A stretch of DNA of 64,000 nucleotides from Pontibacter qinzhouensis (lineage in GTDB: Bacteria; Bacteroidota; Bacteroidia; Cytophagales; Hymenobacteraceae): contig NZ_VRTY01000022.1 of the NCBI RefSeq assembly GCF_008017455.1, forward strand, positions 1 to 64,000. The letters are read 5' to 3'. Position numbers and translations under genes: made by a program. How positions within the stretch are numbered: the first letter of the stretch is position 1; every line of letters starts with the position of its first letter. Of the stretch, positions 21,290 through 36,217 are shown in pieces. The notes under the pieces were generated by a model. It had not been told where the DNA came from. It worked only from the letters and a program-made list of their open reading frames with translations, and made no database searches.

Positions 21290-22024
21290 TTATTCGTTTT
21301 TCTCCAGGCCCACAACCCAACCTATAATAATGAGAGCGGGGTGGGTGAGGTGATGCTCCTGAATTAATTGCGGCAAGTCCTGCACCTGCCCGGTAACCGA
21401 CTTTTTATGTGGCAACGAAGCATGCTGCACCACAGCCACCGGAATGTTCCCGTTTCCTGCGTCTCTATAAGTTTCTGCTATCTCAACGGCTTTTTTCATA
21501 CCCATATAAATAACCACTGTAGCATTGCTCTGCATGGCAAGGCGCAGGTCGTTAGAGAGAGAACCGTCTTTTTTTGTGCCGGTAATGGCCCAGATGCCTT
21601 CGCTCACCGCCCGGTGCGTAAGAGGAATGTCTTCCAGGCCGCTGGCCTGCATGCTGGTAACGCCAGGTATATAATAAGTGGCTATACCATGCTGCCTGGC
21701 GAATAGTACCTCTTCAAAGCCTCTCCCAAAAATGTAAGGGTCTCCACCTTTCAGCCGCACGACTGTACCTTTGCTAAGCGCCTTCTCTTGAATCAGTTCA
21801 TGAATCTTCTCTTGCGGGGTGTAGGAGCCATAGGGGTGCTTACCCACATAAATCTTTTCGCATTCGTCGCGTGTAATGTCCAGCAATTCTTTGTTAGCCA
21901 GGTTGTCGTATAGCACCACATCTGCCCGTTGCAGGACCTTGTATGCTTTCACGGTTATCAACTCAGGATCTCCGGGGCCTGCCCCCACTACATAAAGCTC
22001 AGGTGTTTTTGTGCTGCCAGACAT
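21290..22024 (-). CDS. cobA: Uroporphyrinogen-III C-methyltransferase (SUMT)
   Basis: 244 residues, a single SAM-methyltransferase domain without the CysG dehydrogenase/ferrochelatase part. Signatures are VVGAGPGDPELIT at 12-24 and VRLKGGDPYIFGRG in the middle. It adds two methyl groups to uroporphyrinogen III to give precorrin-2, the entry to siroheme. Siroheme is the cofactor of the nirB product encoded divergently next door, which explains the position. The precorrin-2 dehydrogenase/ferrochelatase needed to finish siroheme is not in the window. Confidence 0.93.
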   Translation of the reverse strand: MSGSTKTPELYVVGAGPGDPELITVKAYKVLQRADVVLYDNLANKELLDITRDECEKIYVGKHPYGSYTPQEKIHELIQEKALSKGTVVRLKGGDPYIFGRGFEEVLFARQHGIATYYIPGVTSMQASGLEDIPLTHRAVSEGIWAITGTKKDGSLSNDLRLAMQSNATVVIYMGMKKAVEIAETYRDAGNGNIPVAVVQHASLPHKKSVTGQVQDLPQLIQEHHLTHPALIIIGWVVGLEKNE

Positions 22025-23002: not shown

Positions 23003-25507
23003 ATGTCACAGCATTCTTTCCCCACGGTAGTAGTCATCGGAAATGGCATGGTCGGTTATAAGTTTTGCGAAAAACTTATGGCCAAGTCAAAAGCCTTTCA
23101 TGTCGTTGTTTTTGGTGAAGAACCCCGCCGCGCATACGACAGAGTGCACCTGAGTGAATTCTTTAATGGTATGTCAGCCGAAGACCTGTCTATGTCGCCG
23201 GAAGATTGGTACCGGAACCACGACATCACGCTGCACCTGGGCGACCCGGTTACAGAGATCAACCGCCTCGAAAAGACGATTCATTCTTCCAGAGGTCTTG
23301 TGCAGCCATACGATTACCTGGTGCTGGCTACTGGATCAGGTGCTTTTGTGCCGAACATACCCGGAGTGGAGAAAGATGGTGTGTTTGTGTACCGAACAAT
23401 TGAGGACCTGGAGCTGATTCAGCAGTATGCGCACACCTGCCGCAAAGGTGCTGTAATGGGTGGCGGGCTTTTGGGTCTGGAAGCTGCCAAGGCACTGATC
23501 GATTTAGGAATAGAAGAAACACATGTCATAGAATTTGCCCCGCGCCTGATGCCCCGCCAGGTAGATTCGGCAGGAAGCAAAACTTTGCAGACGAAACTGG
23601 AAGCACTGGGGCTGCAGATGCACCTGAGCAAAAGCACCACCAACATAGCCGGCAACGGAAAAATTACTGCACTCGAATTTGCTGACGAAACGGTGCTGGA
23701 AGTAGATATGCTGGTGATCTCAGCAGGTATTCGTCCGCGCGATGAACTGGCCAAACTGGCTGGCCTCGAAGTAGGGTTGCGTGGCGGTATTGTAGTAAAT
23801 GAGAAAATGCAGACCAGCGACAGCAGCATCTTCGCCATTGGTGAGTGCGCGCTGCACGAAGGCATGATCTACGGTTTGGTAGCGCCTGGTTACGAAATGG
23901 CAGAAGTAGTGGCAACCCAGATTAGTGGCGGCGACAAAGGCTTCTATGGTTTCGACATGAGCACCAAACTGAAACTGATTGGCATAGACGTAGCCAGCTT
24001 CGGCGATCCGTTTGTGGCAGAGCCAGATGGCCGCTCTATTGTGTTTGAAGATGCGAACAAAGGCGTTTACAAGCGCATCAACATCAGCAACGACGGCAAG
24101 TACCTGCTGGGCGGAGTGCTCGTTGGCGACGCTGATGCCTACAACATGCTCCTGCAGACGGTTAACAACAAACTGGTGCTGCCTCCAAACCCCGAAGACC
24201 TGATTTTGGGAGCCAGGGGAGGAGAAGCAAGCACAGGAGCTGGTGTGATGAGCCTGCCAGACGATGCCCTGATCTGCTCTTGTGAAGCCGTAACCAAAGG
24301 AGATATCTGTTCTGCTGTAAACGAGCAGGGAATTACCTCCGTGGATGGTATGAAGAAATGCAACAAAGCCGGCACTGGTTGCGGTGGTTGCGTGCCGCTC
24401 GTAAAGGACCTGATCACCGGTACGATGAAGGAAAACGGCCAGTACATCAAAAATGTGGTGTGCGAGCATTTCGATCATTCGCGCCAGGAGCTGTTCGACC
24501 TCATGAAGATTAACAACATCCGCACCTACGACGAAGCCTTAGATACCTTTGGCAAAGGCGATGGTTGCGAAGTGTGCAAACCGGTAGTGGCCAGCGTACT
24601 TGCCAGCCTCTGGAACGATGTGATCGTGAAGCAGCACACCATCCAGGATAGCAACGACCGCTACCTCGCCAACATCCAGAAAGGCGGTACTTACTCGGTT
24701 GTTCCACGCATACCGGGAGGCGAAATAACACCAGATAAACTAATCGTGATCGGGCAGGTTGCCAAAGATTACGGGCTCTATACCAAGATAACCGGAGGCC
24801 AGCGCATCGACCTTTTCGGGGCGCACGTAAGCGACCTGCCAGAGATATGGGAGAAGCTGATAGAGGCAGGTTTCGAGAGCGGACACGCCTATGGCAAAGC
24901 CCTCAGAACAGTAAAAAGCTGCGTAGGCAGCACCTGGTGCCGCTTCGGCTTGCACGACAGCGTGTCGTTTGCCATCGAGGTAGAAGATCGCTACAAGGGC
25001 ATACGCGCTCCGCACAAGCTTAAAGGCGGCGTAAGTGGCTGTATAAGAGAATGTGCTGAGGCACAATCGAAAGACTTTGGCATTATAGCCACCGAGAAAG
25101 GCTGGAACCTGTTTGTGTGCGGAAACGGTGGCTCCAAGCCACAGCACGCCCTGCTGCTGGCCACCGATGTAGACAAAGAAACCTGTGTCAAGTACCTCGA
25201 CCGGTTCCTGATGTTCTACATTAAAACAGCCGATCCGCTTACCCGAACCGCCACCTGGCTCAACAAAATGGAAGGCGGCATCAGCTACCTCAAAAACGTG
25301 ATCATCAACGACAGTCTCGGCATAAACGAGCAGCTGGAAGAGGAAATGCAGGCACTTATCAACAATTACCACTGCGAATGGAAAGAAGTGGTGGAGAACC
25401 CGGACCTGAGAAAGCAGTTCAACCATTTTGTAAACGCGCCGGAAGAGAAAGACCCTTATGTGCAGTTCGACACTATGCGCGAGCAGGTAAAAGCCAAGGA
25501 GTGGTAA
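23003..25507 (+). CDS. nirB: NAD(P)H-dependent nitrite reductase, large subunit
   Basis: 834 residues, close to the usual NirB size. It reduces nitrite to ammonium in the cytoplasm with six electrons from NAD(P)H. Domains in order: FAD/NAD-binding reductase (about 1-400) with VVVIGNGMVGYKF; a BFD-type [2Fe-2S] domain with Cys425, Cys427, Cys460 and Cys463; a second BFD-like stretch (about 490-540, GDGCEVCKP); a ferredoxin-like half domain; and the siroheme/4Fe-4S domain with Cys640, Cys646, Cys680 and Cys684 in the C-x5-C/C-x3-C pattern. It stands 391 bp ahead of nirD, an unusual gap. Confidence 0.96.
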   Translation: MSQHSFPTVVVIGNGMVGYKFCEKLMAKSKAFHVVVFGEEPRRAYDRVHLSEFFNGMSAEDLSMSPEDWYRNHDITLHLGDPVTEINRLEKTIHSSRGLVQPYDYLVLATGSGAFVPNIPGVEKDGVFVYRTIEDLELIQQYAHTCRKGAVMGGGLLGLEAAKALIDLGIEETHVIEFAPRLMPRQVDSAGSKTLQTKLEALGLQMHLSKSTTNIAGNGKITALEFADETVLEVDMLVISAGIRPRDELAKLAGLEVGLRGGIVVNEKMQTSDSSIFAIGECALHEGMIYGLVAPGYEMAEVVATQISGGDKGFYGFDMSTKLKLIGIDVASFGDPFVAEPDGRSIVFEDANKGVYKRINISNDGKYLLGGVLVGDADAYNMLLQTVNNKLVLPPNPEDLILGARGGEASTGAGVMSLPDDALICSCEAVTKGDICSAVNEQGITSVDGMKKCNKAGTGCGGCVPLVKDLITGTMKENGQYIKNVVCEHFDHSRQELFDLMKINNIRTYDEALDTFGKGDGCEVCKPVVASVLASLWNDVIVKQHTIQDSNDRYLANIQKGGTYSVVPRIPGGEITPDKLIVIGQVAKDYGLYTKITGGQRIDLFGAHVSDLPEIWEKLIEAGFESGHAYGKALRTVKSCVGSTWCRFGLHDSVSFAIEVEDRYKGIRAPHKLKGGVSGCIRECAEAQSKDFGIIATEKGWNLFVCGNGGSKPQHALLLATDVDKETCVKYLDRFLMFYIKTADPLTRTATWLNKMEGGISYLKNVIINDSLGINEQLEEEMQALINNYHCEWKEVVENPDLRKQFNHFVNAPEEKDPYVQFDTMREQVKAKEW

Positions 25508-25898: not shown

Positions 25899-26255
25899 AT
25901 GGAAATTCAAGTTGCAGAAGCCGTAAAATGGGTAATGGTTTGTAAAACAGAAGATGTGCCGCAAAACGGTGGTGCCTGTGTGAAATACAAAGACGAGCAA
26001 ATTGCGATTTATAACTTTGCCCGCCGTGGCGAGTGGTATGCTACGCAGAACCTGTGCCCGCACAAGCAGCAAATGGTGCTGTCGCGTGGCATGATCGGGA
26101 GCACCGGCGATACCTGCGAGCCAAAAGTAGCCTGCCCGTTCCATAAAAAAGCCTTTTCACTTATCTCAGGAGAATGCCTTTCCGGTGAAGAGTATCAGCT
26201 CAAAACTTACCCGGTAAAAGTTGAGGCAGGCATGGTGTACCTCGGAATAGAATAA
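25899..26255 (+). CDS. nirD: Nitrite reductase small subunit (Rieske-type)
   Basis: 118 residues. It carries the Rieske cluster pattern Cys53-Pro-His55 (NLCPHK) and Cys79-Pro-Phe-His82 (ACPFHKK). NirD partners NirB in assimilatory nitrite reduction. The ATG at 25899 gives a natural start MEIQVAEAV. It is separated from nirB by repeats but still reads in the same direction and is followed 63 bp later by moaCB. Confidence 0.93.
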   Translation: MEIQVAEAVKWVMVCKTEDVPQNGGACVKYKDEQIAIYNFARRGEWYATQNLCPHKQQMVLSRGMIGSTGDTCEPKVACPFHKKAFSLISGECLSGEEYQLKTYPVKVEAGMVYLGIE

Positions 26256-26318: not shown

Positions 26319-27269
26319 ATGCGCGATATCACTCACAAACAAATTACCCTACGCACAGCCCGGGCTGTAGCCGTTATTTTTTGCACCCCCGAAACCATTG
26401 AAACCATTAAATGCGACCAGCTCCCCAAAGGGAACCTGTTCGATGTAGCCAGAGCCGCTGGCTTTTTAGGTGCCAAAGCTACTCCGCAACTCCTGCCGCA
26501 TTGCCACCCCGTTGGCATAGATGGTTTGCAGATAGAGTTTGAGTTTCTGGAGCAGGAACAGCACGAAGGACAATTTCCGGAAGCTGTTTTCCAGCGTTCC
26601 GGCATCGTTATAACCGGTGAGGCCAAGTCGATTGGGCGCACCGGCATAGAGATGGAAATGCTTACAGCGGTATCGGTGGCAGCTTTGGAGATTTATGACA
26701 TGCTGAAGCCGGTAGACACGCAGCTGGAAATCGGTCACATTAAACTACTGGAAAAGAAAGGCGGCAAAAGCGATCGCAAAAAGTTCTTTTCTACGCCACC
26801 AACCTGTGCTGTGCTTGTCTGCTCCGACTCTACCGCCGCCGGCACCCGCGAAGACGGAAGTGGCAAGCTGATAAAGCAGATGCTGGAAGAGGTAAAAGCC
26901 AATGTGAAGCACTACACGATTCTGCCCGACGACCGGGAGCAGATACAGCAGCAAATAAAAGCCTGGGTGGCTGAAGATGTACATTTCATCTTTACCACTG
27001 GTGGCACCGGCCTCGGCCCGCGAGATAACACCGTGGCAGCCGTGGAAGAAATATTGGAACGCGAAGCAGCAGGCATCGCAGAAGCCATGCGGGCTCACGG
27101 GCAGCTCCGTACACCGCTCGCCATGATGAGCAGAGGCGTAGCCGGAGCCATAGGAGAAACGCTGATCGTAACGCTGCCAGGCAGCTCCAACGGCGCCAGA
27201 GAGTCTTTAGAAGCCATTTTGCCAGCCGTGTTCCATGCCCGCAAAATGATGAAAGGGGGCGGACACTAA
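26319..27269 (+). CDS. moaCB: Bifunctional MoaC/MoaB molybdenum-cofactor protein
   Basis: 316 residues combining two Moco enzymes. Residues 1 to about 155 are MoaC (cyclic pyranopterin monophosphate synthase), with LLPHCHPVGIDG and the Glu-rich EMEMLTAVSVAALEIYDM stretch. Residues about 160-316 are a MoaB/MogA domain with TTGGTGLGPRDN, which adenylates molybdopterin. Fused MoaCB proteins are known in several bacteria. The stop overlaps the moeA start (TAATG), so moeA is translationally coupled. Confidence 0.92.
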   Translation: MRDITHKQITLRTARAVAVIFCTPETIETIKCDQLPKGNLFDVARAAGFLGAKATPQLLPHCHPVGIDGLQIEFEFLEQEQHEGQFPEAVFQRSGIVITGEAKSIGRTGIEMEMLTAVSVAALEIYDMLKPVDTQLEIGHIKLLEKKGGKSDRKKFFSTPPTCAVLVCSDSTAAGTREDGSGKLIKQMLEEVKANVKHYTILPDDREQIQQQIKAWVAEDVHFIFTTGGTGLGPRDNTVAAVEEILEREAAGIAEAMRAHGQLRTPLAMMSRGVAGAIGETLIVTLPGSSNGARESLEAILPAVFHARKMMKGGGH

Positions 27270-28498
27270 TGGCGCAGCAGACAGGCAAAGCACCTGCGCT
27301 TATGGCCATAGCCGAGGCGCAGCAACTGGTAAAGACCTATGCAAAATCGTTTGGGCAGGAGCAGGTGGCACTCGATGAGGCAGACGGAAGAGTATTGGCA
27401 GCAGCTATACGAGCCGATCGTGATTACCCGCCTTTTAACCGCTCGGCTGTAGACGGTTATGCCATTCGAACGGCAGATTGGGAGCAAGGTCAGCGAAACT
27501 ACCCGGTGCAGGAAACTATTTTTGCGGGGCAGGCCCACCAGCAGGAGTTGCAGCCCGGTTTCGCCTACAAAATAATGACAGGAGCTGCCGTGCCGACCTC
27601 GGCCAACGCAGTTTTCCGGCGAGAAGATACCACCGAAGGAAAAGGTGCTGTAGAAATTAAAGTCGATACGGTTACCGCCTTTCAAAACATAGCCCGGCAG
27701 GGAGAAGATGTGCAACAGGAGGAAGTACTGGTGCCAGCGCCAATACTGGTAAACCCTTCTGTCATCAATTCGCTTGCAGCCGTGGGGCAGGCACAGGTGC
27801 TGGTAGAAAAGCTGCCACGCATCGCCCTTTTTACAACAGGAGATGAGGTAAAACCAGTTGATGCAGCTGTCTCACCTATTCAGATCAGGAACAGTAACAG
27901 GCACCTGCTGGAGGCGCTGCTCCGGAAATGGAAGCTGAAGCCGGATGTATACCAGCATATTCCGGATACGAAGGAGGCCCTGCACCAGGCAATACAGGAA
28001 GCACTGCAACATGATATGATTATTATGAGTGGCGGAGTATCAGCCGGAGACGCCGATTATGTGCCACAGGTGCTGCAGGAACTAGGCATAGAAAAACTGT
28101 TTCATAAACTAGCGATCAGGCCCGGTAAGCCGGTTTTCTGCGGAAAGCTTCCGAACGGAGGTATTGTGTTCGCGCTGCCCGGAAACCCGTTTTCCTGTCT
28201 CGTAACCTTTACCCTGCTAATTGAGCACTACCTCTACCACTGTTTCGGCTTTGAGGGCGGGCCAGTATACAACTACAAACTGCAGCAGCAACGCACTAAA
28301 AAGCACCAGCTGGCGGAGTTTTTCACGGTTAAAATAAATAAAGACACCACTACCCTGCAGCCGCTCCAGGTCAACGGCTCCGGCGACATCCGGGCCGGGC
28401 TTATGGCACATGGCCTGGGTGTTCATCCGGCAGAGCAGCAGGTACTCGAGCAAGGGCAAACAATAGAATTTATATCCTTCAGCAATAGCCTGATGTAA
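27269..28498 (+). CDS. moeA: Molybdopterin molybdotransferase MoeA
   Basis: 409 residues, normal length. It inserts molybdate into adenylated molybdopterin. Visible motifs: PPFNRSAVDGYAIR at about 53-66, MSGGVSAGDADYVP in the MogA-like domain and LPGNPFSCLVTF near residue 300. It starts one base inside the moaCB stop codon. The product acts directly after the MoaB half of the preceding protein. Confidence 0.94.
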   Translation: MAQQTGKAPALMAIAEAQQLVKTYAKSFGQEQVALDEADGRVLAAAIRADRDYPPFNRSAVDGYAIRTADWEQGQRNYPVQETIFAGQAHQQELQPGFAYKIMTGAAVPTSANAVFRREDTTEGKGAVEIKVDTVTAFQNIARQGEDVQQEEVLVPAPILVNPSVINSLAAVGQAQVLVEKLPRIALFTTGDEVKPVDAAVSPIQIRNSNRHLLEALLRKWKLKPDVYQHIPDTKEALHQAIQEALQHDMIIMSGGVSAGDADYVPQVLQELGIEKLFHKLAIRPGKPVFCGKLPNGGIVFALPGNPFSCLVTFTLLIEHYLYHCFGFEGGPVYNYKLQQQRTKKHQLAEFFTVKINKDTTTLQPLQVNGSGDIRAGLMAHGLGVHPAEQQVLEQGQTIEFISFSNSLM

Positions 28499-28655: not shown

Positions 28656-30020
28656 ATGAAGGCATCAAACGGAAAAGCAACCTCCATTAAGTTATTAAGC
28701 CTGAAGTCCATTCAGATGCGTACCTTCCACTTGTCGTGGCTGGCGTTTTTTCTCTGTTTTTTTGGCTGGTTTGGTATTGCCCCACTTATGGCAGTAGTCC
28801 GCGAAGAGCTCGATCTGACCAAAGATCAGATTGGCAACATCATCATTTCTTCAGTGGCCATTACTATTGTTGCCCGTTTGGTTATTGGTTGGCTGTGCGA
28901 TAAAATCGGGCCGCGCATCAGCTACACGGCACTACTTATTTTGGGAGCTTTTCCGGTTATGTTGATCGGGTTCAGTAATAGCTACGAATCATTCCTGATC
29001 TTTAGATTAGCGATTGGCGTAATTGGAGCTTCTTTCGTGATTACACAATACCACACCACGGTTATGTTTGCGCCCAATGTAGTCGGTACTGCCAATGCCA
29101 CAACTGCCGGTTGGGGTAACCTGGGTGGGGGCGTTACCCAAATGGTGATGCCGCTTATTTTTGCAGGTTTTGTAGGGCTTGGCTTTTTAGATTCGCAAGC
29201 CTGGCGTTATGCCATGGTCGTGCCTGGAGTAGCCATGATCATTTGCGGCATTCTGTACTACCACTTCACCAAAGACTCTCCGGCCGGCAACATTTCTGAA
29301 CTCTCGGATGTAGCTGCAGCCAAAAAGAAAAAAGATACCGTTTCGTTCTGGAAAGCCGCTGCCGATTACCGTGTGTGGGTGCTGTTTGTACTCTACGGTG
29401 CCTGCTTCGGCATAGAGCTGACCATCAACAACATCGCCGCCATCTACTACCACGATTTCTTTGAACTGGATTTAGGAACAGCCGGATTAATTGCAGGTTT
29501 GTTTGGATTGATGAACATATTTGCCCGTACGCTGGGTGGTTTCTTCGGCGATAAAGCCGGGATCCGCTATGGCCTTTCTGGCAGGGTTTGGTTTCTGGGA
29601 GCAGTTATTTTGCTTGAAGGCCTGGCACTGGTAGCATTTTCGAGCATGACGATATTGCCAATTTCTATTATCGTGATGATCGTGTTCAGCCTTTTTGTGC
29701 AGATGGCAGAAGGCGCTACGTTCTCGGTGGTTCCGTTCATCAACAAAAACGCCATGGGTGCTGTGTCGGGTATAGTAGGTGCCGGTGGTAATGCCGGTGC
29801 GGTGGCAGCAGGTTTCCTGTTTAAAGTAGATAACATGTCGTACCCCGAAGCGCTGTACATTATTGGTCTGGTAGTGGCTGGCACTTCGGTACTTGCCCTG
29901 CTGATTCGGTTCTCACCCGCCATGGAAAAAGAAGCCAAACAGGAAATTCACCAGCTGCTGGCAGAGAAAAATGGCCAGGCCATTCCAGCCGCAGCCTACG
30001 AACTCGAAGAAGCAAGATAA
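28656..30020 (+). CDS. narK: Nitrate/nitrite transporter (NNP family MFS)
   Basis: 454 residues with about 12 membrane segments. FHLSWLAFFLCFFGWFGIAPLM in the first segment and the glycine-rich nitrate signatures GWGNLGGGV (first half) and GAGGNAGAVAAG (second half) identify a NarK/NrtP-type carrier. It brings nitrate into the cell for the nitrate reductase encoded next. The ATG at 28656 gives a 20-residue cytoplasmic lead before MRTFHLSW; a later Met is possible. Whether it is proton symport or nitrate/nitrite exchange cannot be told from sequence. Confidence 0.93.
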   Translation: MKASNGKATSIKLLSLKSIQMRTFHLSWLAFFLCFFGWFGIAPLMAVVREELDLTKDQIGNIIISSVAITIVARLVIGWLCDKIGPRISYTALLILGAFPVMLIGFSNSYESFLIFRLAIGVIGASFVITQYHTTVMFAPNVVGTANATTAGWGNLGGGVTQMVMPLIFAGFVGLGFLDSQAWRYAMVVPGVAMIICGILYYHFTKDSPAGNISELSDVAAAKKKKDTVSFWKAAADYRVWVLFVLYGACFGIELTINNIAAIYYHDFFELDLGTAGLIAGLFGLMNIFARTLGGFFGDKAGIRYGLSGRVWFLGAVILLEGLALVAFSSMTILPISIIVMIVFSLFVQMAEGATFSVVPFINKNAMGAVSGIVGAGGNAGAVAAGFLFKVDNMSYPEALYIIGLVVAGTSVLALLIRFSPAMEKEAKQEIHQLLAEKNGQAIPAAAYELEEAR

Positions 30021-30329: not shown

Positions 30330-33300
30330 ATGACGACCGAACAACATAAGGATAAATTTGCCAGTACCTGCTGCTACTGTGGTGTTGGTTGTGGCGTAAC
30401 GGTTTCGAAAGAGAAAAACGGAACAGTTACCGTAGAAGGAGATGCAGCCTATCCGGTGAACAAAGGCATGTTGTGCAGCAAAGGCCTGAACCTTCAGTAC
30501 ACCGTTAACGATAAAAGCGACCGCCTGTTTTACCCACAAATGCGCTACAGCAAGAGTATGCCCATGCAGCGCGTCAGTTGGGACGAGGCTTTGCAGCGTA
30601 CCGCAGCCGTATTCAAAACGTTCATCCAGAAATATGGTCCTGAATCGGTTGCGTTCTATGTCTCCGGGCAGTGCCTGACGGAAGAGTATTACGTAGTGAA
30701 CAAGCTGATAAAAGGCTTTATCGGCAGCAACAACATCGACACTAACTCCAGGCTTTGCATGAGCAGTGCCGTGGCAGGCTACAAAATGGCTTTAGGCGAA
30801 GACAGCGTTCCGGTTAGTTACGACGACATTGAACTGGCCGATTGCTTTTATGTGACCGGAGCCAACCCCGCCTGGTGCCACCCTATTCTGTGGCGTAGAG
30901 TAGAGGCGCATAAAGCAGCAAACCCGGGCGTAAAGATTATTGTCGTGGACCCGCGCGTTACCGATAGCGCTGCCATTGCAGACCTGCACCTGCAGCTGAA
31001 CCCGGGCACCGACGTTATCCTGAATCATGCCATTGGCCGCGTGCTCATCGAGAACGGAGACATTGACCTCGACTTTATTCAGAACCATGCCGAAGGTTTT
31101 GAGGCATATAAAGAGGTGGTATTTGAACGCACCGTGGCAGAAGCAGCAGAACTTTGTGGCGTGCGCGAAGAAGATATCAGGTTGGCTGCAACCTATATAG
31201 GTGGCGCAAAAGGCTTTATTTCGATGTGGACAATGGGCCTGAACCAAAGTGCTGTGGGCGTAGACAAGAACCTGAGCCTGCTCAACCTGAACCTGATTAC
31301 AGGCCAGATCGGCAAACCAGGTGCCGGACCGTTTTCGCTTACCGGGCAGCCTAATGCTATGGGCGGCCGTGAGGTAGGAGGCCTGTCGAACCTGCTGGCA
31401 GCGCACCGCAACCTGAACAACCCGCTGCACCGCGAGGAGGTGCAGAAGTTCTGGGGCGGCACCACGATCTCAGAAAAACCCGGCCTGACAGCCACCGAAA
31501 TGTTTGAAGCCTTAAACAACGGTAGCCTCAAAGCCATCTGGGTAATCTGTACCAATCCGCTCACCAGCTTACCGAACGTGCGGCTGGCAGAGGAAGGCAT
31601 GAAAAAAGCGAAGTTCGTGGTGGTGCAGGATATCAGCGATAAGCCTGAAACCATTCGATATGCCGATGTGGTACTACCAGCTGCTGCCTGGGCCGAAAAA
31701 GAAGGCACCATGACCAACTCCGAGCGCCGCATCAGCCATTTAGCCAAGGTGGTGGATGCTCCCGGAGAGGCCTTGCCAGATGCAGAGATCATCTGTCGCT
31801 TTGCGCAAAAAATGGGTTTCCGTGGTTTCGATTTTAAAAACGCTTCTGAAATTTACCAGGAGCACGCGCAGCTAACAGCCGGAACAAACATCGATATTAC
31901 AGGCCTGAACTACGAAGTGCTGCAGCAAAAGCGGAGCGTGCAGTGGCCATACACCACAGGTGAGACAGGAGAGGGCACTGCCCGCCTTTTTACCGATAAG
32001 ACATTTTACACGCCTTCTACCAAAGCTGTTATTCACCCGGTTCCGGTTGCTTTCAGAAGTGAAATGCCGGATAATGATTTTCCGCTCATATTAACCACTG
32101 GCCGCATCCGCGACCAATGGCACACCATGAGCAAAACTGGGAAAGTGAACAAGCTCAAAAAGCACATTTCTCAGGCTTACCTCGAAATTCACCCCACCGA
32201 TGCTGACCTGCTCAAAATAGGAGAAGGTGATGTGGTGGTGGTAGCCTCCAGAAGAGGAGACGTACGGGTTAAGGCTAAACTATCAGCTAACATAAAACGT
32301 GGTGTTGTGTTTCTGCCGATGCACTGGGGCAAGATTCTGGGTAACGATCTGAACCGTGCCAACAATGTGACGAACGATGCACTCGACCCGATTTCTAAAG
32401 AGCCGGACTTTAAGTTCTGCGCCGTGCGGGTGGAGAAATACAAAAAACCTTTCCAGCGCATTGTGGTGGTAGGTGCCGGGGCAGGAGCCTTTGGTTTTGT
32501 AAAATCATACCGCGAAATAAACCCGGACGACGAGATTACGATTTTCAGCAAAGAAGATTTTCCGTTCTACAACCGCGTGATGCTGCCCGACTACATTAGC
32601 GGCCAACAGCAGTGGGAGCAGCTCGTGAAAATGAAAGACGCCGAAGAGCCAGCTTACAACATAAAACTGCTGCGTGGGGTGAGTGTGGAGAAAGTGAACC
32701 GCGAAGAAAAATACGTGATCGACTCCAGGGGCAACCGCAAAGATTACGACGTGTTGCTGATGGCCACAGGTAGTCGTGCTGCCGTACCGAAGCAGGTGCC
32801 AACTTTGCCGGGCATTTTTACCATGCGCAGCCGCACTGATGCCGATAATTTCAAAAATCATGTGCCAAAAGATGGCCATGTGGTGATCGTTGGCGGCGGT
32901 TTGCTGGGGCTGGAGATGGCGGCATCGATGCGGGAGATTGGCGTTAAGATTACCATTATTCAGCGCGTTTCCCGCTTCCTCGACCGCCAGCTGGACCCAC
33001 TTGGTAGCCAGCTGCTGCACGAGGAGATGGAGGACCAGGGCTGCGATATTTACTACAACGATGAGGTGCAGCTTTACTACGGCCGCTCCAAACTGACCGG
33101 CGTCGGCCTGAAAAGTGGTCGCCGCATAGACTGCGATGCCATGATCATTGCCATCGGTACGGTGCCAAACCTGGAGCTTGCCCGCGACTGCGGCCTCGAC
33201 TGCAAGCGCGGTGTGCTGGTAAACGAGCGCCTGCAGACCAACGACCCGGACATTTTTGCCATCGGTGAAATTGCTGAGTTCGAAGGAGTACTTTACGGCA

Positions 33301-33854
33301 TTACGGCAGCAGCTGAGCAGCAGGCAGAGGTAGTGGCCCATTACCTGAACGGCGATATTGCCAGCCACTACACTGGTAGCACCTTCATGAACATCATCAA
33401 AATCCACGGTTTCGACCTCTGCAGCATCGGCTTACCGGAGTGCCCCAGCGATGATTATGAGGAAATTGTGTTCATCGACAAGGCGAAGCGCTACTACAAG
33501 AAATGCATCATTCACCAGGACCGTTTGGTAGGAACTATTCTGATTGGTGACAAGAGCGAATTCCAGGAGTTCCGGGAGCTGATCTCGAACAAGATAGAGC
33601 TGAGCGATAAGCGTCTTCAATTGCTCCGCAGCGGTAGCAAAGCCGAACCAGTGCTGGGCAAGCTGGTGTGCAGCTGCAACAACGTGGGTTCCGACAACAT
33701 CCGGAACAAGATAGCAGCAGGCTGTACCGATTTTAAAGAACTCTGCGCTACCACCGGTGCCGGCACAGGCTGCGGCTCCTGCCGACCCGAAGTAAAAGCC
33801 ATACTGGACGAGCAACTGAAACTGGAGGTACTAGAAAGCCAGGTGCTGGTGTAG
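30330..33854 (+). CDS. nasA: Assimilatory nitrate reductase fused to NAD(P)H-dependent FAD reductase and BFD domain
   Basis: 1174 residues, far longer than a plain NasA/NarB (about 700-740). N-terminal 4Fe-4S ligands are Cys14, Cys17, Cys21 and Cys49 (C-x2-C-x3-C-x27-C). The molybdopterin oxidoreductase body runs to about 560 and the dinucleotide-binding domain to about 700. From 710 a second enzyme begins: FAD/NAD(P) reductase with IVVVGAGAGAFGF and VIVGGGLLGLE, like the first part of NirB. It ends in a BFD [2Fe-2S] domain with Cys1114, Cys1116, Cys1148 and Cys1151. In Bacillus these are separate proteins (NasC and NasB). The fusion should take electrons from NAD(P)H directly. Confidence 0.93.
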   Translation: MTTEQHKDKFASTCCYCGVGCGVTVSKEKNGTVTVEGDAAYPVNKGMLCSKGLNLQYTVNDKSDRLFYPQMRYSKSMPMQRVSWDEALQRTAAVFKTFIQKYGPESVAFYVSGQCLTEEYYVVNKLIKGFIGSNNIDTNSRLCMSSAVAGYKMALGEDSVPVSYDDIELADCFYVTGANPAWCHPILWRRVEAHKAANPGVKIIVVDPRVTDSAAIADLHLQLNPGTDVILNHAIGRVLIENGDIDLDFIQNHAEGFEAYKEVVFERTVAEAAELCGVREEDIRLAATYIGGAKGFISMWTMGLNQSAVGVDKNLSLLNLNLITGQIGKPGAGPFSLTGQPNAMGGREVGGLSNLLAAHRNLNNPLHREEVQKFWGGTTISEKPGLTATEMFEALNNGSLKAIWVICTNPLTSLPNVRLAEEGMKKAKFVVVQDISDKPETIRYADVVLPAAAWAEKEGTMTNSERRISHLAKVVDAPGEALPDAEIICRFAQKMGFRGFDFKNASEIYQEHAQLTAGTNIDITGLNYEVLQQKRSVQWPYTTGETGEGTARLFTDKTFYTPSTKAVIHPVPVAFRSEMPDNDFPLILTTGRIRDQWHTMSKTGKVNKLKKHISQAYLEIHPTDADLLKIGEGDVVVVASRRGDVRVKAKLSANIKRGVVFLPMHWGKILGNDLNRANNVTNDALDPISKEPDFKFCAVRVEKYKKPFQRIVVVGAGAGAFGFVKSYREINPDDEITIFSKEDFPFYNRVMLPDYISGQQQWEQLVKMKDAEEPAYNIKLLRGVSVEKVNREEKYVIDSRGNRKDYDVLLMATGSRAAVPKQVPTLPGIFTMRSRTDADNFKNHVPKDGHVVIVGGGLLGLEMAASMREIGVKITIIQRVSRFLDRQLDPLGSQLLHEEMEDQGCDIYYNDEVQLYYGRSKLTGVGLKSGRRIDCDAMIIAIGTVPNLELARDCGLDCKRGVLVNERLQTNDPDIFAIGEIAEFEGVLYGITAAAEQQAEVVAHYLNGDIASHYTGSTFMNIIKIHGFDLCSIGLPECPSDDYEEIVFIDKAKRYYKKCIIHQDRLVGTILIGDKSEFQEFRELISNKIELSDKRLQLLRSGSKAEPVLGKLVCSCNNVGSDNIRNKIAAGCTDFKELCATTGAGTGCGSCRPEVKAILDEQLKLEVLESQVLV

Positions 33855-33989: not shown

Positions 33990-35483
33990 ATGAAATTACA
34001 TACCATCAAAATAAACCTCCCAGGCGGAATAGTTTCTGCCGGAGATCTTTATGAAGTGCTGTCAGCTGCTGAAAAGGCGGGAGTGGAGGATGTGCGGTTT
34101 GGGAACAGGCAGCAGTTGTTTTTTCATGTGGCCGATGACAGGCTACCAGTGCTGAAGCAGGACTTGTTTCTGGCAGACATCATGTTTGAGCTGAATGCAG
34201 ATGCGCACCCGAATATTATAAGTTCCTACGCCATAGAAGAAGTTATTTACCACCCCGACTGGCTGCGCGAAGGCGTGTATAAAGACATTCTGGACCTGTT
34301 CGATTACCGGCCACAGCTCAAGATAAACCTGGTGGATAACGACCAAACCTTTTTCCCGTTTTTTACCGGCAACCTCAACTTTATCGCCTCCGACACCAGC
34401 AACTACTGGTACCTATACATCCGTTTTCCGAAAACGAATGTTATTTACCAGTGGCCAACGCTCGTTTATTCCGAAGACATTGCCGACCTGAGCAGTGCTA
34501 TAGAGCGCACCATTTTTGCCAGCCCGGAGCTATTTTATGACCAGCCGGCCATAGATGGAAACCTGTTGCACAGCATGGTAAATGCTGTAGGTGATTTTGT
34601 AATTCAGCCCATTACCAAGGCGCTTAAACTTCCGGAGTTTACGCTCTCTTACTACGAAGGCTTTAACCGCTACGGGAGCAACAAACTGTGGCTCGGCATT
34701 TACCGCCGCGATGAGCTGTTTAAAGTTGCCTTCCTGAAAGACCTCTGCAAAGTGTGCATGAAAACGCGGGTAGGGCAGCTGTACACCACCCCCTGGAAAT
34801 CGGTGATTGTGAAAGGAATAGATGCTGCCGACCGAAACCTGTGGGATGCCGTGCTCTGTAAATACCGCATAAACGTGCGCCACGCCTCCAACGAGCTGAA
34901 CTGGCAGGTAGAGGACCAGTGTGCCTATGGCCTGGAGCTGAAAAACGAGCTGGTGCGCAAGCTGAACGAGGAGGATGTGCGTACCTTTAAGCTTTGCTTT
35001 GCCATTAAAACCCAACCAAAAACAGGCTTGTTTGGCTCTATCATCATCCGGACGCAACAGGATATTACCGAGGGAGTTGTGCTGGCCGATGAGCGGTTTG
35101 AGATTCTTTATACCCGCGATTTCAACCCGAACTCAAAGGATTTTATCTGTTTCAGGAAAGATGTGCAGAGGCATGAACTTAGTACTTACATTATTGAGTT
35201 GTGTAACTATTACTATGAGCTGCAAAGCGAGCCAGATTTAATGGCAAACGCGGTTTACCTGGAAAATGAAGTGACTACAGAAGCAGCAGAACCTGTAAAA
35301 CCTAAGGTTTACCAATGCCGTAACTGCTATACCATTTATGACGAAATGTATGGCGATGCCGTAAATGATATAGCCGCAGGAACTCCGTTCGAAGCCCTGA
35401 GTACATATACTTGCCCGACCTGCGATGCGCCTAAAGAAGATTTTAAAGCAATAGAAACACCACAACCTGTGCCTACTGAATGA
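33990..35483 (+). CDS. Sulfite/nitrite-reductase-like protein fused to C-terminal rubredoxin
   Basis: 497 residues. The N-terminus has a ferredoxin-like half-domain pattern of siroheme sulfite/nitrite reductases (LPGGIVSAGDLYEVL, then VEDVRFGNRQQLFFHV), and TPWKSVIVKGI echoes the second repeat. The C-x5-C/C-x3-C ligands of siroheme and 4Fe-4S were not found, so this part may not bind them. Residues 443-478 form a rubredoxin with Cys443, Cys446, Cys475 and Cys478. The stop overlaps the next start (ATGA). It lies between nasA and moaA, so a role in electron supply or assembly for nitrate or nitrite reduction is inferred. The exact function is unknown. Confidence 0.75.
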   Translation: MKLHTIKINLPGGIVSAGDLYEVLSAAEKAGVEDVRFGNRQQLFFHVADDRLPVLKQDLFLADIMFELNADAHPNIISSYAIEEVIYHPDWLREGVYKDILDLFDYRPQLKINLVDNDQTFFPFFTGNLNFIASDTSNYWYLYIRFPKTNVIYQWPTLVYSEDIADLSSAIERTIFASPELFYDQPAIDGNLLHSMVNAVGDFVIQPITKALKLPEFTLSYYEGFNRYGSNKLWLGIYRRDELFKVAFLKDLCKVCMKTRVGQLYTTPWKSVIVKGIDAADRNLWDAVLCKYRINVRHASNELNWQVEDQCAYGLELKNELVRKLNEEDVRTFKLCFAIKTQPKTGLFGSIIIRTQQDITEGVVLADERFEILYTRDFNPNSKDFICFRKDVQRHELSTYIIELCNYYYELQSEPDLMANAVYLENEVTTEAAEPVKPKVYQCRNCYTIYDEMYGDAVNDIAAGTPFEALSTYTCPTCDAPKEDFKAIETPQPVPTE

Positions 35484-36217
35484 ATTATGACCTGCTGATT
35501 GCCACTTCGTTACTTATTGTTGGTTTCCTGTATGCCTCGGTAGGGCATGGTGGTGCAAGTGGTTACCTGGCAGTTCTATCTATTTTTGCGGTGCCTGTAG
35601 TAGTCTATAAACCTATGATCTTGGTGCTGAATATGTTAGTGGCAGGCATCGGTTTTTATCAATTCTACAGAGCTGGCTATTTTAAATGGAAGTTGCTCTG
35701 GCCCTTTCTCATTACCTCCATTCCGCTTGCTTTTATAGGCTCACGTGTAAGCTTGCCCGAGGGTAACTTTAACCTGCTGCTTGGCCTGGCGCTACTGCTA
35801 CCTGTTATCAGGTTATTAGGTTTTGGCCCTAAAGAGAAGCAGGAGCAGCGGGAACTGAACCTGACAACTGCCCTGCTGTGGGGTATCGTTATCGGGTTTT
35901 TATCGGGCTTGCTGAACATTGGCGGTGGAATCTTTTTGAGTCCTTTATTGGTTCTATTGGCATGGGCAAATGCCAAACAAGCCGCTGCTGTATCGAGTCT
36001 GTTTATTTTCTTTAACTCGCTGGCGGGGCTGTTAGGGAGCTCCTTTACAACCTATACTATCAGCAATTCTGCGTATATTTGGTTTGCTGCAGCTTTGGTG
36101 GGAGGCACGGCAGGCGCTTATTTTGGCAGCCAGCGGTTTGCACAGACCACGGTGCGTTACCTGCTAACGGCTGTTTTAGGCATTGCCTCGGTTAAACTTA
36201 TATTTTTTATGCAATAA
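35480..36217 (+). CDS. TauE/SafE-family permease
   Basis: 245 residues with about 7-8 hydrophobic segments. VGFLYASVGHGGASGYLA at the start and the second-half echo GFLSGLLNIGGGIFLSPLL form the family's internal repeat. Members export or import sulfur-containing anions or other small anions. It overlaps both neighbours by a few bases, so it belongs to the same operon as nitrate reduction and moaA. In this context sulfite, nitrite or molybdate are all conceivable substrates; none can be assigned. Confidence 0.85.
   Translation: MNYDLLIATSLLIVGFLYASVGHGGASGYLAVLSIFAVPVVVYKPMILVLNMLVAGIGFYQFYRAGYFKWKLLWPFLITSIPLAFIGSRVSLPEGNFNLLLGLALLLPVIRLLGFGPKEKQEQRELNLTTALLWGIVIGFLSGLLNIGGGIFLSPLLVLLAWANAKQAAAVSSLFIFFNSLAGLLGSSFTTYTISNSAYIWFAAALVGGTAGAYFGSQRFAQTTVRYLLTAVLGIASVKLIFFMQ

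Follow-up and report, generated by a model that had tools for sequence, protein, structure and literature searches.

A rubredoxin-fused protein of predicted sulfite/nitrite-reductase fold, lacking the cofactor cysteines, accompanies fused NasA and NirB in Bacteroidota

Assimilatory nitrate reduction is usually described in terms of NasC/NasB/NasG or NarB/NirA parts. The nitrate island of Pontibacter qinzhouensis holds, besides its reductases, a gene whose product joins a sulfite/nitrite-reductase-fold (S/NiR) domain to a C-terminal rubredoxin, which raises the question of what a reductase-like scaffold devoid of its cofactor ligands does beside a one-electron carrier. We use the label SiR-Rd for this open reading frame (ORF) and its homologues, and "the window" for the whole stretch of 64,000 nucleotides analyzed. 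Our findings indicate that SiR-Rd is a real, conserved protein and a third kind of component, which tracks fused NasA and NirB in every sampled genome possessing both; no description of the family was found in the open-access literature searched. The features of the window are as follows:

21290-22024, reverse strand: CobA/SUMT, siroheme precursor methyltransferase (TIGR01469, above cut-off)
23003-25507, forward strand: NirB, NADH nitrite reductase large subunit (NCBIfam NirB model, above cut-off)
25899-26255, forward strand: NirD, Rieske-type small subunit (TIGR02378 above cut-off; Rieske_2)
26319-28498, forward strand: Mo cofactor genes, a moaC-MoCF fusion and moeA (Pfam)
28656-30020, forward strand: NarK-like MFS nitrate/nitrite transporter (TIGR00886, 303.6 bits, slightly below the cut-off of 311.7)
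30330-33854, forward strand: fused NasA, with a Mo catalytic half and a NirB-like FAD / rubredoxin-reductase-C / BFD [2Fe-2S] half (Pfam, NCBIfam)
33990-35483, forward strand: SiR-Rd ORF, 497 aa, ATG start
33990-35243, forward strand: predicted cofactor-less S/NiR-fold domain, SiR-Rd residues 1-418 (AlphaFold2 model, VIA-align, Pfam)
34095-34115, forward strand: RFGNRQQ motif, SiR-Rd residues 36-42, aligned with the siroheme-loop TNRQ of SiRHP (R40 = R117, Q41 = Q118)
35235-35300, forward strand: disordered linker, SiR-Rd residues 416-437 (pLDDT below 50)
35301-35459, forward strand: rubredoxin domain, SiR-Rd residues 438-490, ligands Cys443, 446, 475 and 478 (Pfam, E 1.3e-13)
35480-36217, forward strand: TauE/SafE permease (Pfam TauE, E 3.3e-31), overlapping the SiR-Rd stop codon
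36217-39612, forward strand: moaA, moaE and a mobA-like gene for Mo cofactor (Pfam; moaA below the TIGR02666 cut-off, the mobA-like gene below that of TIGR02665)

At positions 26319-27269, moaC is joined to a molybdopterin-binding (MogA/MoaB-like) domain.

The structure of SiR-Rd was modeled with AlphaFold2 from a 28-row alignment (mean pLDDT 86.7, pTM 0.78); a single-sequence model reached a pLDDT of 35.5 and was left out of the analysis. When compared by VIA-align, model residues 4-419 match SiRHP (4g39) with a Z of 28.4 over 390 residues at an rmsd of 3.3, and a complete two-repeat S/NiR fold, not one half of it, is therefore predicted for residues 1-418. Matches to nitrite reductases are weaker (NirA 1zj8, Z 24.4; 3b0g, Z 24.8), and identity in the structural alignments of this domain is about 11-14%. 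Pfam detects only two families in SiR-Rd at E up to 1, namely NIR_SIR_ferr at residues 3-59 (E 7.3e-11) and Rubredoxin at residues 441-485. Profile-profile comparisons gave probabilities of 15.5% with CysI-type proteins, 22.7% with NirA, 47.2% with the larger siroheme reductase of Bacteroidota, and 2.1% with NirB; all four are weak, so that none of these families is singled out as the source of the scaffold.

Although SiR-Rd is by its predicted fold a member of the S/NiR family, it does not carry the defining cofactor site. The motif C-x(3-7)-C ... C-x3-C, representing the ligands of the siroheme/[4Fe-4S] centre, occurs in 0/28 aligned SiR-Rd sequences, whereas the same search is positive in 30/30 siroheme reductases (7/7 CysI-type, 5/5 NirB, 5/5 NirA, and 13/13 further Bacteroidota sequences). 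Similarly, PF01077, the Pfam NIR_SIR 4Fe-4S family, was not found in SiR-Rd at E up to 1; the NirB of the window matches it at 9.6e-21. An ordinary siroheme reductase is ruled out by the absence of the cysteine motif. Other positions of the scaffold are invariant in the alignment: R40, Q41, N75, D116, Q119, and N130, with R40, Q41, N75, and G38 present in 28/28 rows. In the alignment to the CysI-type profile, R40, Q41, and N75 correspond to R117, Q118, and N154 of SiRHP, which we take to be siroheme-loop residues; the matching of SiR-Rd to SiRHP residues relies on the CysI-type and larger-siroheme-reductase profile alignments, which agree where they overlap. A separate CxxC pair, residues 253 and 256 (window positions 34746-34757), sits on a helix within the second half domain, a long way along the chain from the lost cofactor cysteines; of 28 rows, 27 have the first of these two residues and 26 the second.

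The C-terminal domain is a rubredoxin by Pfam profile, predicted fold, and cysteine pattern. SiR-Rd scores 51.2 bits against PF00301 (cut-off 23), model residues 438-490 match solved rubredoxins with a Z of about 9, and in a profile search of solved structures rubredoxins are found among the best 60 of 67 matches. The four cysteine ligands are kept in 27/27 aligned rows having the domain. Ordinary rubredoxins carry a glycine after each CxxC; in SiR-Rd, a glycine directly follows the first CxxC in 0/27 rows and the second in 3/27, and the domain falls below the cut-off of the NCBIfam RubredRD model. The tether that joins it to the scaffold, measured from the equivalent of residue 413 to the first rubredoxin cysteine, spans 23 to 30 residues across the 27 rows. 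In two homologues, L018 (genome G046) and L138 (G698), the loop between the cysteine pairs is much shortened and all four cysteines are kept.

These results bear directly on the initial annotation, which had described a half-domain resembling siroheme reductases, without the four cysteines for siroheme and 4Fe-4S, attached to a complete rubredoxin, and had proposed structure prediction and comparison with NirA and CysI. The likeness to siroheme reductases stands, as do the loss of the ligands and the intact rubredoxin, and the comparison did recover a sulfite-reductase fold; the model extends what was thought to be half a domain to the whole two-repeat fold. Its broader picture, in which a nitrate island encodes a cofactor-less reductase scaffold attached to a one-electron carrier, is borne out by fold, conservation, and genomic context.

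The same annotation had placed weight on translational coupling to the TauE permease and moaA and had suggested the conservation of neighbors as a check. In the window, the SiR-Rd stop and tauE start do overlap (ATGA, 35480-35483), as do the tauE stop and moaA start at 36217. Elsewhere this arrangement is rare: tauE lies directly downstream of SiR-Rd in 3/39 other loci and moaA within 40 bases downstream in 4/39, so that neither is retained as a functional partner. The neighbor that is conserved lies on the other side. Fused nasA is found upstream, on the same strand and within 1 kb, in 37/39 other SiR-Rd loci, at distances from -157 bases (with the start codon unsure) to 954 bases and with several overlaps of 4-11 bases. 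No ORF of at least 80 aa intervenes in 34 of these 37 loci, and one does in the remaining three. The two loci without upstream nasA belong to G055, where NasA is encoded on another contig, and to G334. In G040 and G046, nirB lies elsewhere and SiR-Rd stays with nasA.

Long SiR-Rd matches were found in 44 genomes, distributed over three overlapping samples: 12/59 relatives, 16/295 genomes of the class, and 29/395 of the phylum. The relatives and class samples together contribute 26 distinct genomes and the phylum sample 18 more; matches to the rubredoxin only were excluded (8/24 in the class sample, 59/88 in the phylum sample, and 9/13 plasmid records). A scan of named contigs yielded seven loci in Pontibacter, Botryobacter, and Rufibacter, the closest of them in P. 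beigongshangensis at 85% identity. Full-length relatives with intact reading frames extend down to 29% identity, which rules out a chance fusion or a frameshift artefact. The gene is also carried by plasmids: the full-length form occurs in 4/13 matching plasmid records, from Hymenobacter volaticus, Spirosoma oryzicola, and two Persicobacter, and the two annotated RefSeq records among the plasmids name it only "rubredoxin." In the island of the H. volaticus plasmid, nirB is present as two overlapping ORFs (L167:6003-8506) and is therefore perhaps split or affected by a sequencing error.

The strongest regularity is the company that SiR-Rd keeps. Of the 44 SiR-Rd genomes, 43 also encode fused NasA, a nitrate reductase joined to an NADH/FAD module, together with NirB. 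Among the relatives, SiR-Rd, fused NasA, and NirB occur in the identical 12/59 genomes; in the class sample, fused NasA and NirB share the identical 15/295 genomes, all with SiR-Rd, the sixteenth SiR-Rd genome being the exception, G334. In the phylum sample, NasA is matched along both of its halves in 33 genomes, of which 28 have SiR-Rd and five do not, so 28/29 SiR-Rd genomes there have the fused enzyme; eight further genomes, matched over the Mo half of NasA only, have no SiR-Rd. Full-length NirB was found in all 18 new SiR-Rd genomes of this sample, in which NirB was searched in 31 chosen genomes, and when NasA and NirB were used as queries in the class and phylum samples, the first two or three candidates per genome were scored. 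In G334, fused NasA and NirB were not found, and its SiR-Rd copy (L054:63-1556), which ends before the rubredoxin, looks like a remnant; as this copy sits at a contig start, the losses may partly be due to assembly.

The five genomes of the phylum sample with fused NasA and no SiR-Rd (G534, G388, G356, G475, and G498; L170-L174) also have no NirB: the NirB search found in them a match to the FAD half only, within their own NasA. A lax profile search detected no SiR-Rd in any of the five, the trace in G356 being a match to the first half domain (E 0.013) in a 685-aa frame. Their islands encode NirA instead; three of these proteins pass the NCBIfam NirA cut-off, and the other two share 63-64% identity with the first. 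A flavodoxin and a flavin reductase lie beside NirA in two of the five loci, these being the two scanned with Pfam, and no such ORF pair lies between NirA and NasA in G498. The NasA proteins of these genomes likewise contain NirB-type FAD modules, as seen in the three of the five that were scanned.

In a quick NasA tree that includes some long rows, a single branch with a support of 96 separates the 43 NasA proteins of SiR-Rd genomes from the five others, so SiR-Rd was probably gained once. The position of all 43 on one side of this branch also makes the comparison of NasA plus NirB with NasA plus NirA close to a single contrast. Among the genomes sampled, no loss of SiR-Rd was seen where NasA and NirB were retained. 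We further compared distances in 23 genomes; 25 possess three of the genes, and the two of these that lack the control gene were dropped. Distances in the SiR domain correlate with those of the NasA FAD half (r 0.90), the NasA Mo half (0.87), and NirB (0.79), and once a third siroheme reductase is controlled for, the partial r values are 0.70, 0.66, and 0.49-0.54, respectively. The rubredoxin, a short domain, displays no NasA preference (partial r 0.11-0.13 with NasA versus 0.14-0.19 with NirB). The scaffold evolves about twice as fast as NasA, with a mean distance of 1.10 versus 0.42 and 0.56.

Taken together, these observations suggest that SiR-Rd probably assists the nitrate reductase by docking on it and relaying electrons. 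More specifically, we propose, tentatively and with somewhat less than even confidence, that it is an accessory subunit of NADH-dependent nitrate/nitrite assimilation in Bacteroidota. Residues 1-418 would be a pseudoenzyme that has lost the siroheme-[4Fe-4S] centre and serves as a docking scaffold on fused NasA, and the rubredoxin on its flexible linker would trade electrons one at a time with the NirB-like FAD modules that NasA and NirB both possess. The reduction of nitrate and that of nitrite would then use NADH in a coordinated way, and a build-up of nitrite would be avoided. The NADH/FAD modules of both NasA and NirB contain a rubredoxin-reductase C-terminal domain (Pfam, NCBIfam), of which a rubredoxin tethered by 23-30 residues could be the natural electron partner. 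A precedent for such a role is found in Paracoccus, where, according to PMC4724949 and PMC6618116, the ferredoxin NasG takes up electrons at the NADH site of NasB and delivers them to NasC as well as to NasB, an electron sharing considered there to avoid nitrite accumulation.

The co-occurrence with NasA plus NirB, the absence from the five NirA-type systems, and the closer congruence with NasA favor this adaptor role without proving it, and the absence of SiR-Rd where NirA, fed by other carriers, performs the second step fits it as well. Several points count against it. The island also encodes NirD, a Rieske protein that corresponds to NasG, so a NasG-like role may be taken already; NasA contains a complete NADH-FAD-[2Fe-2S]-[4Fe-4S]-Mo chain itself; the tie with NirB appears, from the sequences compared, to rest on one origin; the distances of the rubredoxin itself show no preference for NasA; and similar FAD modules are also present in NasA proteins unaccompanied by SiR-Rd. 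A more detailed version is somewhat unlikely as a whole: SiR-Rd, a reductase retained after loss of its cofactor, would be the hub of a nitrate-to-ammonium complex, binding NasA and NirB together, its tethered rubredoxin with unusual metal knuckles sharing electrons between the two NADH-flavin modules, and it would have arisen once with the NirB-side NasA and been kept in each such lineage sampled.

The initial annotation had left the choice between an electron-transfer adaptor and an assembly factor; the former is favored here by the three lines of evidence just named, and the latter is its main rival, although we regard it as rather unlikely. As a maturation factor, or chaperone, the scaffold would hold immature NasA during insertion of [4Fe-4S] or Mo cofactor, with the rubredoxin as a redox or metal-handling part. 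SiR-Rd does adjoin nasA amid Mo cofactor genes, and NasC of Paracoccus requires the chaperone NarJ, as stated in PMC6618116. The NarJ/TorD family (PF02613) was not found in 25/25 SiR-Rd genomes examined (the control was positive in 5/14 known genomes), so that SiR-Rd could take on this task. Yet PF02613 is also absent from three of the five fused-NasA genomes without SiR-Rd, and NasA maturation is therefore possible without either. Moreover, a maturation role leaves unexplained why SiR-Rd tracks NirB rather than NirA, and a tethered electron carrier is not obviously needed by such a factor.

Two further explanations, both less likely than a maturation factor, draw on what remains of the active site. 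In the first, which we consider improbable, a vestigial site keeps part of the anion-binding pocket and either takes nitrite over from NasA and delivers it to NirB or acts as a nitrite sensor. Of the SiRHP residues R83, R153, K215, and K217, presumably the four basic anion-binding residues, two have basic counterparts by weak profile alignment: K7, aligned with R83, is K or R in 25 of the 27 rows having a residue there, and K111, aligned with K217, is K in 25/28 and R in one. Basic character is not kept at the other two, as R153 matches P74 (P in 21/28) and K215 matches Q109 (Q, K, R, or T). Thirteen of the 24 invariant scaffold residues fall in five loops equivalent to cofactor-contact loops, against 3.1 expected, with the loops chosen after the data had been seen; such a scaffold would nevertheless leave the rubredoxin without a role. 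Least probable of all, and very unlikely in our view, is that SiR-Rd is an active or tetrapyrrole-binding enzyme in which siroheme or sirohydrochlorin, bound without the canonical cysteines, is reduced via the rubredoxin, or that it carries siroheme to NirB. The invariance of R40, Q41, and N75 and the siroheme-pathway methyltransferase within the island would agree with tetrapyrrole binding, whereas the absence of the axial and cluster cysteines in 28/28 sequences and the adherence of SiR-Rd to nasA rather than nirB in G040 and G046 argue against it.

Compared with known systems, SiR-Rd shares with SiRHP/CysI and NirA the predicted fold of residues 1-418 and the RQ motif of the first ferredoxin-like half domain, and differs from them in the missing cofactor cysteines and the added rubredoxin; since the match begins at SiRHP residue 80, the N-terminal stretch of SiRHP is missing from SiR-Rd. 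With rubredoxins, including rubredoxin tails such as that of the flavorubredoxin NorV, it has in common the four cysteines in two CxxC pairs, the Pfam Rubredoxin family, and matches to flavorubredoxin chains, but it mostly lacks the post-CxxC glycines, and its partner domain appears to be a reductase pseudoenzyme. The likeness to NasG of the Paracoccus NasABGHC system lies in the proposed role only, that of a one-electron carrier between a NirB-type NADH site and the nitrate reductase, and the pairing of SiR-Rd with both reductases in all but one genome agrees with it; NasG, however, is a separate ferredoxin, and the SiR-Rd island has its own Rieske NirD besides. The parallel with NarJ, described in PMC6618116 as a maturation protein of NasC, likewise concerns only the role put forward in the chaperone explanation, that of a helper specific to an assimilatory nitrate reductase of the Mo type, and SiR-Rd does not match PF02613 at E up to 1.

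If the adaptor role is correct, SiR-Rd would illustrate how a reductase turned into an electron-transfer scaffold and would offer a gene for probing how bacteria avoid nitrite accumulation. Additionally, 23 of the 26 genomes scanned encode another, second siroheme reductase (L095-L117), about 700-750 aa long, in which the cysteine motif is complete and a C-terminal stretch extends past the reductase domains; the one member scanned against NCBIfam falls below the NirA, CysI, and Sir cut-offs.
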